Assembly (NCBI RefSeq): GCF_001434145.1
Contig: NZ_AZED01000008.1
Location: forward strand, 1-64,000
Length of the DNA: 64,000 bases
Reading direction: 5' to 3'
Origin: Lentilactobacillus otakiensis DSM 19908 = JCM 15040
GTDB taxonomy: Bacteria; Bacillota; Bacilli; Lactobacillales; Lactobacillaceae
Shown here: piece after piece, positions 1,322 to 49,011 of the stretch
How the letters are laid out: the number at the start of each line of letters is the position of its first letter
Position numbering within the stretch: the stretch's first letter is position 1
Notes under the pieces: generated by a model
Databases searched by the model: none
The model's input: the letters and a program-made list of their open reading frames with translations, nothing else
What the model was told of the DNA's origin: nothing
Translations under genes and position numbers: made by a program

Positions 1322-1423
1322 TGTGGATATTGTGGATAACTTTTCACAAGTCTTTGGTCCCTAACGCTGAACCTGTGGATAAGACTGTGCACAACTTATT
1401 GACTTCTCTGTTATTTATCCACA
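1322..1423. promoter_or_regulatory. DnaA-box cluster between dnaA and dnaN
   Basis: Three perfect copies of the DnaA box TTATCCACA (or its complement) are at 1331-1339, 1374-1382 and 1415-1423, with a near match at 1322-1330. They fill the dnaA-dnaN spacer. With the larger cluster upstream of dnaA they form a bipartite origin layout like that of Bacillus subtilis. Confidence 0.85.
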
Positions 1424-1438
1424 GTCGATTATACCATT

Positions 1439-2788
1439 TTAGTTCAGGGCGCTTTTAATATCCGAGATTTCTTTTCTTAAATCGGCATCAAGTTTGATAA
1501 TTTCAGCAATTTTATCGCAGGCATGAATAACCGTTGTGTGATCCTTACCGCCGAATTCTTTACCAATCTTTGGCAGCGAGTTACTGGTCATTTCTCTGGA
1601 CAAGTACATCGCAATCTGGCGAGGCATGACGATTGATTTCATGCGTTTCTTGCCTTTGAGATCATTGATGGAAATGTGGAAATAACTGGCAACTTTGTTT
1701 TGAATGTCAACGATTGAGAGCTGACGGTTGTCTTGGCTCAACTTCAAGCCACGGAGTGCTTCATAGACCAAGTCAGTGGTAATCGGTTCATCTTTTAATT
1801 TGGAATAAGCTTGGACCCGAGACAGTGCGCCTTCAAGTTCCCGGACGTTAGAGTCAATTTGACCGGCAATGTAAGACAATGTGTCGTTGGGAATGACCAG
1901 GTTATCCAACTTGGCTTTATTTTTGAGAATCGCAATTCTGGTTTCAAGGTCAGGTGGTGTAATGTCTACTGGCAGACCCCAGGCAAATCGAGATACTAAC
2001 CGTTCCTGTAACTTAGGGATTTCTTGAGGAACTCGATCTGAAGTTAAAACAATTTGTTTGTCGTTATTATAGAGATCATTAAAAGTATGGAAGAACTCTT
2101 CTTGGGTTCCTTCTTTTTGGGCAAAGAATTGAATATCATCAACCATCAAAATGTCGACGTCCCGGTATGCGCGTCGGAACTCTTCAGTTCGATTGGTTTG
2201 AATGGCGTTAATGAAGTCGTTGGTGAAGGCTTCACTGGTGACATATTTAACGTTGGTTTCTGGATGATCCTCAAGGCGCTTGTTACCGATGGCCTGCATT
2301 AAATGGGTTTTGCCCAAACCAACGCCACCATAGAAGAACAAAGGATTGTAAAGTTTCCCGGGTTCTTCAGACACAATTAAAGCAGCGGCGTGGGCCATTT
2401 GGTTGCCTTTACCGATAATAAAGTTATCGAACGTGTAATTGGGATTGAGATGATTTTCCTTACTAAATGAAAACTTGTCATCGTCTTGTTCCTGATCTGC
2501 ATTGTTATCCACAGGTTTTTCTTGCGCTTCTTTATTAACGTCTGAATCCAGAATAAACTTTGGCTCGATGTTACCTTTGGTTATCACAAAAGCGTACTCA
2601 ATCAAGTTTGGTGCCAATTGTTCTTTCCAGTAATCCCGATGCAATTCAGAAGGTAAAGATAAAGTAAGTGTGGATCCATCAAAGCTGATCGGTTTGACTG
2701 GTTTGATCCAGGTATCATATGTAAGGTCAGTGGTGTTGCTGCGAAATTGATCGCTTAATTTCTGCCATAATGAATCCTTATCTAACAC
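1439..2788 (-). CDS. dnaA: Chromosomal replication initiator DnaA
   Basis: A 449-residue initiator ATPase that binds DnaA boxes and opens oriC. Visible parts in order: N-terminal helicase-loading domain (about 1-80), an acidic linker (about 85-110), the AAA+ core with Walker A GGVGLGKTH (about 154-162) and Walker B ILMVDDIQF, and the C-terminal DNA-binding domain with the signature GGKDHTTVIHACDKI. The start is GTG at 2788, preceded by AGAGGGGGAA, an unusually G-rich ribosome-binding site shared with many surface genes in this window. It is flanked on both sides by DnaA boxes, so it is probably autoregulated. Confidence 0.98.
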   Translation of the reverse strand: MLDKDSLWQKLSDQFRSNTTDLTYDTWIKPVKPISFDGSTLTLSLPSELHRDYWKEQLAPNLIEYAFVITKGNIEPKFILDSDVNKEAQEKPVDNNADQEQDDDKFSFSKENHLNPNYTFDNFIIGKGNQMAHAAALIVSEEPGKLYNPLFFYGGVGLGKTHLMQAIGNKRLEDHPETNVKYVTSEAFTNDFINAIQTNRTEEFRRAYRDVDILMVDDIQFFAQKEGTQEEFFHTFNDLYNNDKQIVLTSDRVPQEIPKLQERLVSRFAWGLPVDITPPDLETRIAILKNKAKLDNLVIPNDTLSYIAGQIDSNVRELEGALSRVQAYSKLKDEPITTDLVYEALRGLKLSQDNRQLSIVDIQNKVASYFHISINDLKGKKRMKSIVMPRQIAMYLSREMTSNSLPKIGKEFGGKDHTTVIHACDKIAEIIKLDADLRKEISDIKSALN

Positions 2789-18813: not shown

Positions 18814-18980
18814 CGCTTTTTTGTGTTCGCAATGGACCTAGCTCTAAAGATCAGCGAGCAACATGGTACAGGCATATATCTGTCTTGAATAAGTTCACTT
18901 TGTGAAAATTACTTTGACATTTCTGCGATTCGTTATATCATAAAACCAGCCAAGTAATTGATTGGCCAATTGAATAAAGT

Positions 18981-19150
18981 AGTCTGGGGTGCCCTAAACG
19001 GCTGAGAAAACACCCATTGAACCTGATGCAGTTAGGACTGTCGAAGGAAGAACGAAATTCTTTTTTGTGTGAGCTAATAGATATAAAGTCGATTAAACTT
19101 TTACTCTGTTCCCTCTTTCTTCGAGGTTTTGAAGAAAGGGGGATTTTTTT
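18981..19150 (+). promoter_or_regulatory. TPP riboswitch with transcription terminator
   Basis: The THI-box hallmarks are present: TGGGGTGCCC, GGCTGAGAA (about 18999-19007), ACCCATTGAACCTGATGCAG and a closing GGACTGTCGAAGGAAG. A 13-base-pair terminator hairpin follows (TCCCTCTTTCTTC / GAAGAAAGGGGGA, 19110-19143, then TTTTTTT). The GAAGGAAGAA end of the aptamer can pair with the TTCTTC arm, as expected for a switch. Bound thiamin pyrophosphate should turn the next two genes off. Confidence 0.95.
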
Positions 19151-23235: not shown

Positions 23236-23551
23236 TACAAAAAAATCCGCCCTAAATGTTTTCACATTAAGGACGGATTATTCCGCGGTGCCACCTTAGT
23301 TCAACTGATCAAAGAAAGACTATCTACCATATGTAAATCAAATCTTTCCCGTCAATTACGCTTAGCAAGGGACTAACATCCCTCCGGCAACTGACGTATG
23401 CCAACACGTTTCTTCGTACTTGTAAACTTTCGGAAGAACCCTCAGTGGTCCATTTAACTGTCTGCGTCCGGCCGCATTCTCAGCAATAGCGACTCTCTTT
23501 ACGTGCACAACAATCTTGATCTCCACTTCAATGGTTTATTTAGGACGGTAT
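23236..23551 (-). promoter_or_regulatory. Tryptophan T-box leader of trpE-trpG
   Basis: Read on the minus strand, the leader has a Stem I closed by AGTGG/CCACT (23523-23527 with 23444-23448). The specifier UGG is at 23450-23452, followed by A. The T-box sequence AAGGTGGCACCGCGG is near 23283-23297, and the terminator is AATCCGTCC... / ...GGGCGGATT plus T7 (23236-23279). Uncharged tRNA-Trp should allow read-through. The 5' end of the leader (23538-23548) repeats the terminator's 5' arm and could pair with its 3' arm. Confidence 0.92.
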
Positions 23552-23683
23552 TTAATTGTCATTAAAATTACGCTCTTTATGAGAAGATGTCAAGAAAATT
23601 AATAATTTATACTTTAGGGTTGACACATCCTCGAATTCATTATATGCTCTATGCAATTAAAATTTAACTTTCTTAGGAGATTC

Positions 23684-23915
23684 TAATCATGATAAAAATT
23701 AATTCAAAAATTAATCGATTTTATTACTATTGGTACGTTTAGTGTTCACACCGGACAGGATGTGGGCACTCACTCACATCCTGTGCGGCCAATAGTATTT
23801 CATCATGATTACTTACTTCGGTCACACAGTTATTTACCAAATATACTGCGGGACCAATTTTTTTACACAAAATTTCGACTCCCGTAGTGTTATATACACT
23901 GTGGGAGTTTTATTT
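23684..23915 (+). promoter_or_regulatory. Transcription attenuator of aroF-aroB
   Basis: Nested perfect pairings surround the leader peptide: TAATCATGAT (23684-23693, covering its start codon) with 23802-23811; the codons TACTATTGG (23725-23733) with CCAATAGTA (23789-23797); and a hairpin CCGGACAGGATGTG / CACATCCTGTGCGG (23751-23788). Two terminators follow: GGTC...CAGT / ACTG...GACC with T7 (23820-23864), and ACTCCCGTAGTG / CACTGTGGGAGT with a T-rich tail (23878-23915). A ribosome paused on the Tyr/Trp codons would break the middle stem and could change terminator folding. Confidence 0.72.
23689..23742 (+). CDS. Aromatic leader peptide of the aroF-aroB operon
   Basis: A 17-codon open reading frame encoding MIKINSKINRFYYYWYV. 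Six consecutive codons are Phe, Tyr, Tyr, Tyr, Trp, Tyr, directly before the last codon and the stop. AGGAG (23675-23679) lies nine bases before the ATG. It is followed by nested hairpins and two terminators before aroF. This is the classic composition of an attenuator leader peptide, here sensing aromatic amino acids, the end products of the shikimate pathway that aroF and aroB start. I do not know of it as described in lactobacilli. Confidence 0.8.
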   Translation: MIKINSKINRFYYYWYV

Positions 23916-23956
23916 TATTCAAAATAACGTCAAATATAGAAATGGAGATAATAGAT

Positions 23957-24973
23957 ATGATTATTGTACTTAAGGATGGACATGAAAACATTATTGATGA
24001 GATCAAGAGCCGCTTCACTGAAACCAACGAGGTATTTGTTCACAACAATCGAGTGGCGATTCAAGGCGTAAGTGAAGATGATTTAAATGCAGAAGAAAAG
24101 AATACGATTGATCTGATCATCGATAATGTTCCCGCTGCAGTTCAAGGCAGCCGCCTTTTTCACCCAGAAGACACGATTGTTACCACGCCGCATAGCCAAA
24201 TTGGTGGCGATAACTTCACCATGATGGCAGGTCCTTGCTCAGTTGAATCCGCAGAACACGTCATGAAAATGGCTAAGGTCGCCAAAAGTGGTGGTGCAAC
24301 AGTCCTCCGTGGTGGTGCCTTCAAGCCTCGGACCTCACCATACTCATTCCAAGGACTCGGCGAAGATGGTCTGAAATTCTTGAGAGCAGCAGCAGATGCT
24401 TACGACATGGATGTTTTAACCGAAGTTATGGATCAAGACCACGTGGCAATGGTTGAACAGTACACCGACATTTTCCAAATTGGTGCCCGAAACATGCAAA
24501 ACTTCTCACTTTTGAAGGCTGTTGGTAAAACTCAGACTCCAGTAATGCTAAAACGCGGAATGTCTGCTACGATTGATGATATCTTAAATGCGGCTGAGTA
24601 CATCGCAGCTGGTGGTAACCACAATATCATCATTACTGAACGAGGAATTCGGACATTTGATAACAAATACACGCGGAACACTCTCGATGTTGGTGCAGTG
24701 CCAGTGTTGCAAAAATTGACTCATTACCCAGTCATTCTTGACCCAAGCCACGCTGCCGGCCACACAGAGTTTGTCACTCCCGAAGCATTAGCCGGTGCAG
24801 CAGTTGGTGCCAGTGGGTTGGTTGTCGAAATTCACGACGATCCTGCCCACGCATTCTCCGACGGTGCCCAAGCATTGAAGCCAGACGAATACCGTGCAAT
24901 GGCCCAACAAGCATTTGCCATTCGACAAGTCATTACCACCCCAATTCAAGAAAAAAGTGAGGTAAAGTTATGA
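23957..24973 (+). CDS. aroF: 3-deoxy-7-phosphoheptulonate (DAHP) synthase
   Basis: A 338-residue type I-beta DAHP synthase, which condenses phosphoenolpyruvate and erythrose 4-phosphate in the first shikimate step. A ferredoxin-like regulatory domain (about 1-70, MIIVLKDGHENIIDEI) resembles that of the Thermotoga enzyme and usually mediates feedback inhibition. The barrel starts at MMAGPCSVES and contains LRGGAFKPRTSPYSFQGLG and ILDPSHAAGH. I chose the ATG at 23957, with GGAG nine bases upstream; an in-frame ATG at 23942 overlaps that site. aroB overlaps its stop by four bases (ATGA). Confidence 0.94.
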   Translation: MIIVLKDGHENIIDEIKSRFTETNEVFVHNNRVAIQGVSEDDLNAEEKNTIDLIIDNVPAAVQGSRLFHPEDTIVTTPHSQIGGDNFTMMAGPCSVESAEHVMKMAKVAKSGGATVLRGGAFKPRTSPYSFQGLGEDGLKFLRAAADAYDMDVLTEVMDQDHVAMVEQYTDIFQIGARNMQNFSLLKAVGKTQTPVMLKRGMSATIDDILNAAEYIAAGGNHNIIITERGIRTFDNKYTRNTLDVGAVPVLQKLTHYPVILDPSHAAGHTEFVTPEALAGAAVGASGLVVEIHDDPAHAFSDGAQALKPDEYRAMAQQAFAIRQVITTPIQEKSEVKL

Positions 24974-48672: not shown

Positions 48673-48740
48673 TAAAAAATGTTGACATCAATCTCAAAAT
48701 GGATTAGTATTTGTGTCAATCAGAAACATTAGATTTTGCT

Positions 48741-49011
48741 AAGACAAGGAGAGTAGTCTCTTAGAACTTTTTCAGGGAGAATCGGGTAAGTGAGAACGAT
48801 TCAAAAGCCTAAGTGATGAAAGTAGCCTTCGAGCGACGAATGCGAGCGAATTTGCGAGTGTTTGTTGGGAGCGCCCATTACAGCGCCAGTGTATCGCTAA
48901 AGCTTATTTGGCCGTACATGGTGAGTCGATAGTTGTGAAGCTGTCGAGAATTTGGGTGGTAACACGTGTAAACGTCCCTTAAGATCGTAAGGATCTTAAG
49001 GGACGTTTTTT
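48741..49011 (+). promoter_or_regulatory. T-box leader of brnQ (specifier probably GUA, valine)
   Basis: The T-box core GGGTGGTAACACG is at 48954-48966, followed by a 16-base-pair terminator AACGTCCCTTAAGATC / GATCTTAAGGGACGTT with T6 (48971-49011). Stem I starts near AAGGAGAGTAG (48746-48756); AAGG can pair with CCTT (48826-48829), placing GTA (48822-48824) plus G in the specifier position. Valine fits a branched-chain amino-acid transporter. The specifier is less certain than the T-box itself. The stretch 48673-49036 has no gene. Confidence 0.85.

Follow-up and report, generated by a model that had tools for sequence, protein, structure and literature searches.

What controls the aroF-aroB operon of Lentilactobacillus otakiensis? 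The question arises from a 64,000-nucleotide stretch of its genome (the window), in which aroF (DAHP synthase, PF00793; 23957-24973) and aroB (3-dehydroquinate synthase, PF01761; 24970-26049), both assigned by Pfam on the plus strand, are preceded by a short open reading frame and a chain of complementary sequence words. T-boxes and repressors are generally credited with amino acid control in Firmicutes. Taken together, the sequence of this leader, its relatives and folding models make it highly likely that the operon is governed by a ribosome-mediated transcription attenuator whose signal is the charging state of Phe, Tyr and Trp tRNAs, sensed jointly.

The leader frame, found by a frame scan of the window and by comparison of leaders, runs on the plus strand from an ATG at 23689 to a TAG at 23740-23742 and comprises 17 sense codons for the peptide MIKINSKINRFYYYWYV. 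It has its own ribosome-binding site, AGGAG (23675-23679), and carries the six consecutive aromatic codons Phe-Tyr-Tyr-Tyr-Trp-Tyr at 23719-23736, just as the initial annotation had described. A short frame with a ribosome-binding site and a run of end-product codons, the mark of a leader-peptide attenuator, is therefore present at the level of sequence. Further upstream, a promoter-like site, TTGACA-17-TATGCT (23620-23648, plus strand), matches the consensus at 10 of 12 positions; it is weak evidence, since four such sites occur in the region where 2.5 are expected. Within the 64 kb, one other frame of 8-40 codons contains six aromatic codons in a row (minus strand, 17629), and five dinucleotide shuffles of the window gave none. 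In the whole genome, the codon pattern of three Phe or Tyr, a Trp and a further Phe or Tyr occurs six times, as does its reversed control. The aromatic run by itself is thus not rare; what is rare is the joint occurrence of frame, stems and conservation.

On the minus strand, divergent from aroF-aroB, lie trpE-like and trpG-like genes (PF00425/PF04715 and PF00117). A T-box upstream of the trpE-like gene (23266-23540, minus strand; 91.7 bits, just below the cut-off of 93) lies next to the aromatic leader in divergent orientation. Elsewhere in the window, a T-box (48732-48982) and a TPP riboswitch (18975-19066) both exceed their Rfam cut-offs.

The RNA downstream of the ribosome-binding site can adopt two alternative folds, whose strands all lie on the plus strand. 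Two complementarities pointed out in the initial annotation proved exact: TACTATTGG (23725-23733), within the codon run, is the complement of CCAATAGTA (23789-23797) with a spacing of 55 bases, and TAATCATGAT (23684-23693), which spans the leader start codon, is the complement of ATCATGATTA (23802-23811). These form helices P2 and P1, respectively, of an OFF fold that also includes P3 (23754-23764 with 23775-23785, -16.2 kcal/mol) and the two terminators that had been placed ahead of aroF and were recovered there. The weaker one, T1 (23820-23855), is built from segment 4 (23820-23829) and segment 5 (23846-23855) and is followed by AATTTTTTT, with a U tail at 23856-23864. The stronger one, T2 (23877-23909), is built from segment 6 (23877-23890) and segment 7 (23896-23909), with a U tail at 23910-23919; in the terminator scan it is the one site found against 0.3 expected in shuffles. 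In the ON fold, segment 1 (23741-23749), which begins in the stop codon, pairs with segment 2 (23762-23770), which P3 overlaps, to give a hairpin of 9 pairs (-10.6 kcal/mol). Segment 3 (23781-23790), the antiterminator strand, then pairs with segment 4 (-12.1 kcal/mol), and 23845-23853 in T1 pairs with 23880-23888 in segment 6 (helix 5:6, 9 pairs, -14.1 kcal/mol). Because segments 2 to 6 each join one helix of both folds, the OFF and ON sets are mutually exclusive along the chain. Sequence and covariation thus reveal both an intrinsic terminator ahead of the operon's first gene and an antiterminator exclusive with it. Covariation places P3, the 3' strand of P2 and segments 1 to 5; both-side changes, including those at third codon positions, place the 5' strand of P2. 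The 5' strand of P1 rests on a swap test and its 3' strand on sequence, segment 6 on the terminator scan and a duplex test, and segment 7 on the terminator scan. The initial reading of the locus as a stalling attenuator gains support from relatives, but its mechanism was incomplete: its two pairings are both helices of the OFF fold, and it contained neither the ON helices nor a relay between T1 and T2.

From these folds and the position of the frame, the device is very probably a relay of seven segments whose gate is the stop codon. If aromatic amino acids are plentiful, the leading ribosome would reach that codon and cover segment 1, leaving segment 2 to pair with 3 (P3), 4 with 5 (T1) and 6 with 7 (T2). 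Once that ribosome had left, P1-P2-P3, a long hairpin, would also lock in the start codon and the codon run. Under shortage of an aromatic tRNA, the ribosome would halt on the Phe-Tyr-Tyr-Tyr-Trp-Tyr codons, upstream of segment 1; there it would prevent P2 and leave segment 1 free, so that 1:2, 3:4 and 5:6 could pair, neither terminator would form and aroF would be transcribed. T1 would double as a relay, its 3' arm being the antiterminator of T2, and a T1 that lacks a U tail and cannot terminate could still release segment 6 through its stem.

How widely is the leader conserved? A blastn census using the leader as query matched 56 of 397 genomes, a count that includes short chance matches and is superseded by a covariance model. 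It placed leaders in the window's own genus and in Secundilactobacillus (g20; genera are given here as numbered handles). Of twenty weak matches checked, 8 proved not to be leaders and 12 did, the degenerate L115 included; the weaker matches revealed the same peptide upstream of transketolase-like genes in other genera. The covariance model, R1, was built from 41 leaders and includes the codon columns, which biases its matches towards such codons. Across the taxonomic family it matched 95 of 397 genomes in 16 of 40 genera, including 20 of 24 genomes in the window's genus. All 96 family matches were read, giving 94 leaders, one degenerate locus (L115) and one false match (L212). A sample of the order gave 16 matches in 395 genomes: 11 in the same family, four in genus g65 of family f3, and one in genome G704 that was rejected, its sequence being identical to L212. 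A sample of the class gave two in 299, the window itself and genome G838. Within G838's own family, the model hits 14 of 26 genomes (E up to 0.1); all 14 belong to a single genus with 15 genomes, and seven of them have two matches. Of the 21 matches there, 20 were read. A match is rare in a sample of family f3 (1 of 58 genomes). Outside the window's family, the leader thus occurs in 18 genomes of two other families. Six antisense matches are attributed to the palindromic nature of the stems.

The 118 leaders read in total all have at least four aromatic codons among the last 12 (range 4-7 residues), and Phe, Tyr and Trp are all represented there in 99. The order of the run drifts (FYYYWY, FSYYW, YYYFWF, FYSYW, FYYYFGFF, YYYYQPR, FYYDYLF), and a partly conserved L/I-N-R/S stretch precedes it. 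The initial annotation had proposed aligning the leaders of relatives in search of conserved aromatic codons and compensatory changes in the stems, and that alignment came out in its favor. Loss of the frame or of the run with the stems kept, which would have spoken against it, is not seen among the 118 leaders, a comparison that is not blind given the codon columns of the model. The degenerate locus L115 (genome G169, near 1403-1490, minus strand) presents the reverse case: its codon run is retained and its stems are gone, segments 1-3, the stretch between two CAGTAAT repeats, having been lost.

The terminators and the words of the chain vary among genera. Of 94 leaders, only 56 carry a U tail behind T1 (g1, 16 of 20; g16, 13 of 13; g20, none of 14; g13, none of 4), and a usable T2 candidate with a U tract lies downstream of T1 in 92 of 94. 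Read by eye, g16 has the same chain in quite different words (CACTTAG/CTAAGTG), and short variants, namely the four g13 leaders and L214, are without segments 1-2 and have their stop codon by segment 3. The example read is L207, with GCATCTGTG and CACAGATGC as the pairing words. In the g13 leaders and L214, a terminating ribosome would block segment 3 directly, which would give the same sign of control.

Covariation was assessed on an alignment of 91 of the 118 leaders (A4), which omits near-duplicates as well as the g13 leaders, L213 and L214. The OFF helices are paired in 92.3% of cells, all 34 of their pairs show changes on both sides, and the number of cells with both-side changes is 603, compared with 161 in shuffles; the fitting of A4 to the OFF structure favors these counts. 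The ON helices 1:2 and 3:4 are paired in 78.6% of cells, with both-side changes at 16 of 18 pairs and 168 both-side-changed cells against 71 in shuffles. In neither case was the observed number reached in 500 shuffles, which is not to be read as a probability, since the sequences are related and shuffles overstate the contrast. Further pair types of the ON helices are not exceptional in A4 (53 of 500 shuffles). In a plain MAFFT alignment of the first 41 leaders, the OFF helices are paired in 89.6% of cells and 15 of their 34 pairs have both-side changes; for the ON helices the figures are 88.2% and 9 of 21. As the structures were drawn mainly from L001, the window's own leader, and L112, paired cells are favored over slid controls.

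Individual helices bear on a narrower account, compatible with the attenuator, in which only P2, the pairing of the codon run with its downstream complement, matters and helices 1:2 and 5:6 are by-products. P2 has the best-kept core in the 91 leaders, with four pairs intact in 100% of cells. At two third codon positions, P2 switches from C-G to U-A in 22 cells and from U-A to C-G in 33, preserving both the pair and the aromatic codon. Against the narrower account, helix 1:2 is paired in 87.8% of cells and shows both-side changes at all 8 of its pairs, and the T1 stem is kept in 93.8% of cells even though many T1 have no U tail. Helix 5:6 is also specific to its own leader: the mean energy is -12.42 kcal/mol for own duplexes, -8.30 for duplexes swapped between genera and -5.83 for shuffled ones, and the own duplex is better than the swapped in 65 of 77 leaders; in g30 it is worse, and in g7, g22 and g38 it is hardly better. 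Helix 3:4 is less well kept, at 71-72% of cells. P1 averages -7.9 kcal/mol against -5.0 when swapped and is better in 59 of 81 leaders; in g16 and g30 its own pairing is no better than swapped.

The sign of control was examined by folding 94 leaders (near-duplicates included) up to the T1 loop with a ribosome placed at several codons. The footprint was taken as 15 nt 3' of the P site, the value for the E. coli ribosome. A read-out at the T2 loop, tried first, did not separate the ribosome positions; the read-out was then moved to the T1 decision and shuffles were added. Mean sequestration of segment 4 by upstream RNA was 0.63 with the ribosome at the first aromatic codon, 0.677 at the third, 0.49 at the fifth (mostly Trp) and 0.419 at the stop codon, and 0.265 in ribosome-free RNA. 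Shuffled leaders gave 0.453, 0.436 and 0.493 for the third codon, stop and no ribosome, respectively. The value at the third codon exceeds that at the stop in 78 of 94 leaders (mean difference 0.258, against a mean of 0.017 and a maximum of 0.068 in 15 shuffled sets) and that without a ribosome in 81 (0.412, against -0.04 and 0.002). Thirteen of 16 genera follow the expected direction in each contrast; the opposite is found in g7, g8 and g22 relative to the stop, and in g7, g8 and g24 relative to ribosome-free RNA. The effect is weak for a ribosome with Trp in its A site, whose value exceeds that at the stop in 46 of 94. The leader of the window itself retains P3 in its most stable fold even with a stalled ribosome, so that the ON fold must win kinetically, during transcription, with 1:2 made first. 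The largest difference in folding, that between stalled and ribosome-free RNA, is also what would be expected were P2 alone decisive. Weighed against the covariation of 1:2, the specificity of 5:6 and the persistence of T1, the P2-only account is considered unlikely, and the full relay remains the preferred reading.

Two further explanations would replace the relay altogether. The leader could be a riboswitch, a T-box or a protein-binding RNA that contains the small frame by coincidence. Amino acid genes in this group are usually controlled by T-boxes, the neighboring trpE-like gene has one upstream on the opposite strand, and the fold of the aromatic leader is both elaborate and conserved. 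Against this, a search of Rfam 15 found no family above its gathering score at the leader, the T-box model (RF00230) gave no match on 23600-23960 or 23640-23960, and the only family with an E of 1 or less was RF04312, at 23.1 bits (E 0.42) against a cut-off of 59. The frame, its ribosome-binding site and its stop are conserved, and the third codon positions in P2 co-vary with their partners while the codon stays aromatic. Read by eye, g1, g30 and g16 all begin segment 1 at 10-12 nt downstream of the first base of the Trp codon, even though g30 has its stop one codon later. An RNA-only or protein-binding leader is consequently regarded as very improbable. A TnaC-like arrest, in which the nascent peptide senses a free aromatic amino acid and not tRNA charging, could draw on the partly conserved L/I-N-R/S stretch, but it is just as improbable, since the run varies where exact residues near its end should be kept and since arrest on surplus would turn biosynthesis on when it is unneeded.

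The genes behind the leader, named by similarity to Pfam-named clusters, fit control by aromatic supply. The first downstream gene of the 118 leaders is tkt in 48, aroF in 29, aroE in 21, an aminotransferase in 15, an MFS gene in 3, aroC in 1 and unassigned in 1. Operon orders, each taken from one genome per case (the window for g1), are tkt-aroE-aroF-aroB in g15, g16, g24, g30, g33 and g38; tkt-aroF-aroB in g22; aroE-aroF-aroB-aroC-aroA-tyrA-aroK in g3 and g7; aroF-aroB in g1, g2 and g6; aroC-aroA-tyrA-aroK in one g20 genome (G057); and an aminotransferase with a D-2-hydroxyacid dehydrogenase in g13, in one g30 genome (G271) and in one g33 genome (G097). The leader keeps its position at the operon head while the gene behind it changes. 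If the proposed mechanism is correct, these bacteria, which span 16 genera of one family and extend outside it, would commonly regulate flux into the shikimate pathway (transketolase, DAHP synthase) at this leader, which would offer a simple handle on the production of aromatics and perhaps of phenyllactate.

Some of these loci hint at wider roles. Aromatic leaders lie upstream of MFS transporters at L205, L206 and L210, and at L223 (g29) aroC-, aroA- and aroK-like genes follow the MFS gene, so that the transporter may serve aromatic compounds. At L221, L230, L231 and L245, aromatic leaders precede an aminotransferase and then a D-2-hydroxyacid dehydrogenase-like gene, a pair that could make phenyllactate. 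Secundilactobacillus collinoides has an apparently second aroF (L032) on the contig of L026, with no aromatic leader in the 1.5 kb upstream.

Leader-peptide attenuators as such are already known; the aromatic leader family matches no Rfam model. Among the matches listed in the open-access literature, no aromatic leader peptide was described in lactobacilli; that scope extends neither to most subscription papers nor to Panina 2003 on aromatic control in low-GC Gram-positives. The classical leader-peptide attenuators are trpL, pheL and hisL of enterobacteria, with which the aromatic leader shares a short frame of end-product codons, a terminator, an exclusive antiterminator and a place at the head of a biosynthetic operon. 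It differs from them in having its control codons upstream of segment 1 and its stop codon inside it, so that stalling would free segment 1 and not mask it, in its predicted reading of three aromatic amino acids at once, in its relay-linked tandem terminators and in matching no Rfam leader family. Within Firmicutes, leader-peptide attenuation has been predicted for His (PMC2965389, PMC9413887). Those leaders, as presented in the available portions of these papers, have His codons, precede hisS-type genes or his operons and occur in other taxa, and no aromatic, aro or tkt leader is named in those portions. With the T-box (RF00230), such as its neighbor before the trpE-like gene, the aromatic leader would have in common the sensing of tRNA charging and antitermination, and it shares a metabolic field; unlike a T-box, it would sense through translation.

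The closest parallel is the trpB motif, RF04312, which PMC11109978 describes as a strong riboswitch candidate, an attenuator not being excluded, with a stem P1 whose right shoulder is a possible antiterminator and then a terminator. In the order, 69 of 118 genomes contain it at E up to 0.001, the cut-off being exceeded in 26, and the matches number 81. Thirty-two of these loci (L272-L303, Lactobacillales; 21 over the cut-off) were examined, among which L283 and L284 are alike and L280 and L281 nearly so. With frames chosen by highest Trp count, all 32 have a Trp-codon frame ahead of the motif, with one Trp codon in 8 and more in 24, often WQxWRR, and the stop codon lies 8-29 nt ahead of the motif in all 32. 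As in the aromatic leader, the stop region of the frame can pair with RNA downstream, here the motif's own P1: the stretch from the stop codon onwards forms a duplex with the left P1 arm at a mean of -12.8 kcal/mol against -5.1 when shuffled, better than shuffled at 31 of 32 loci, though within one standard deviation at 7. Under a fixed rule (ATG, Shine-Dalgarno match of 5 of 6), 30 of 32 loci have a frame, 30 have Trp and 22 have two or more Trp, compared with 1.4%, none and none of 640 shuffles. RF04312 differs from the aromatic leader in its Trp codons, its five segments and its sequence. Most likely, then, the trpB motif is a Trp leader-peptide attenuator of the same stop-gated design, and the orphan riboswitch candidate becomes directly testable as such. 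It seems rather probable that both belong to an unrecognised class of stop-codon-gated relay attenuators in Bacilli, with control codons upstream, the stop codon inside segment 1 and a chain of alternately pairing words. Such a class would comprise five segments in the trpB motif (Trp), seven in the aromatic leader and a short variant without the first toggle, would stand at the head of whichever gene leads an aromatic operon, and would explain the orphan trpB candidate. The chain of segments also shows how attenuators could grow by segment pairs without a change of sign.
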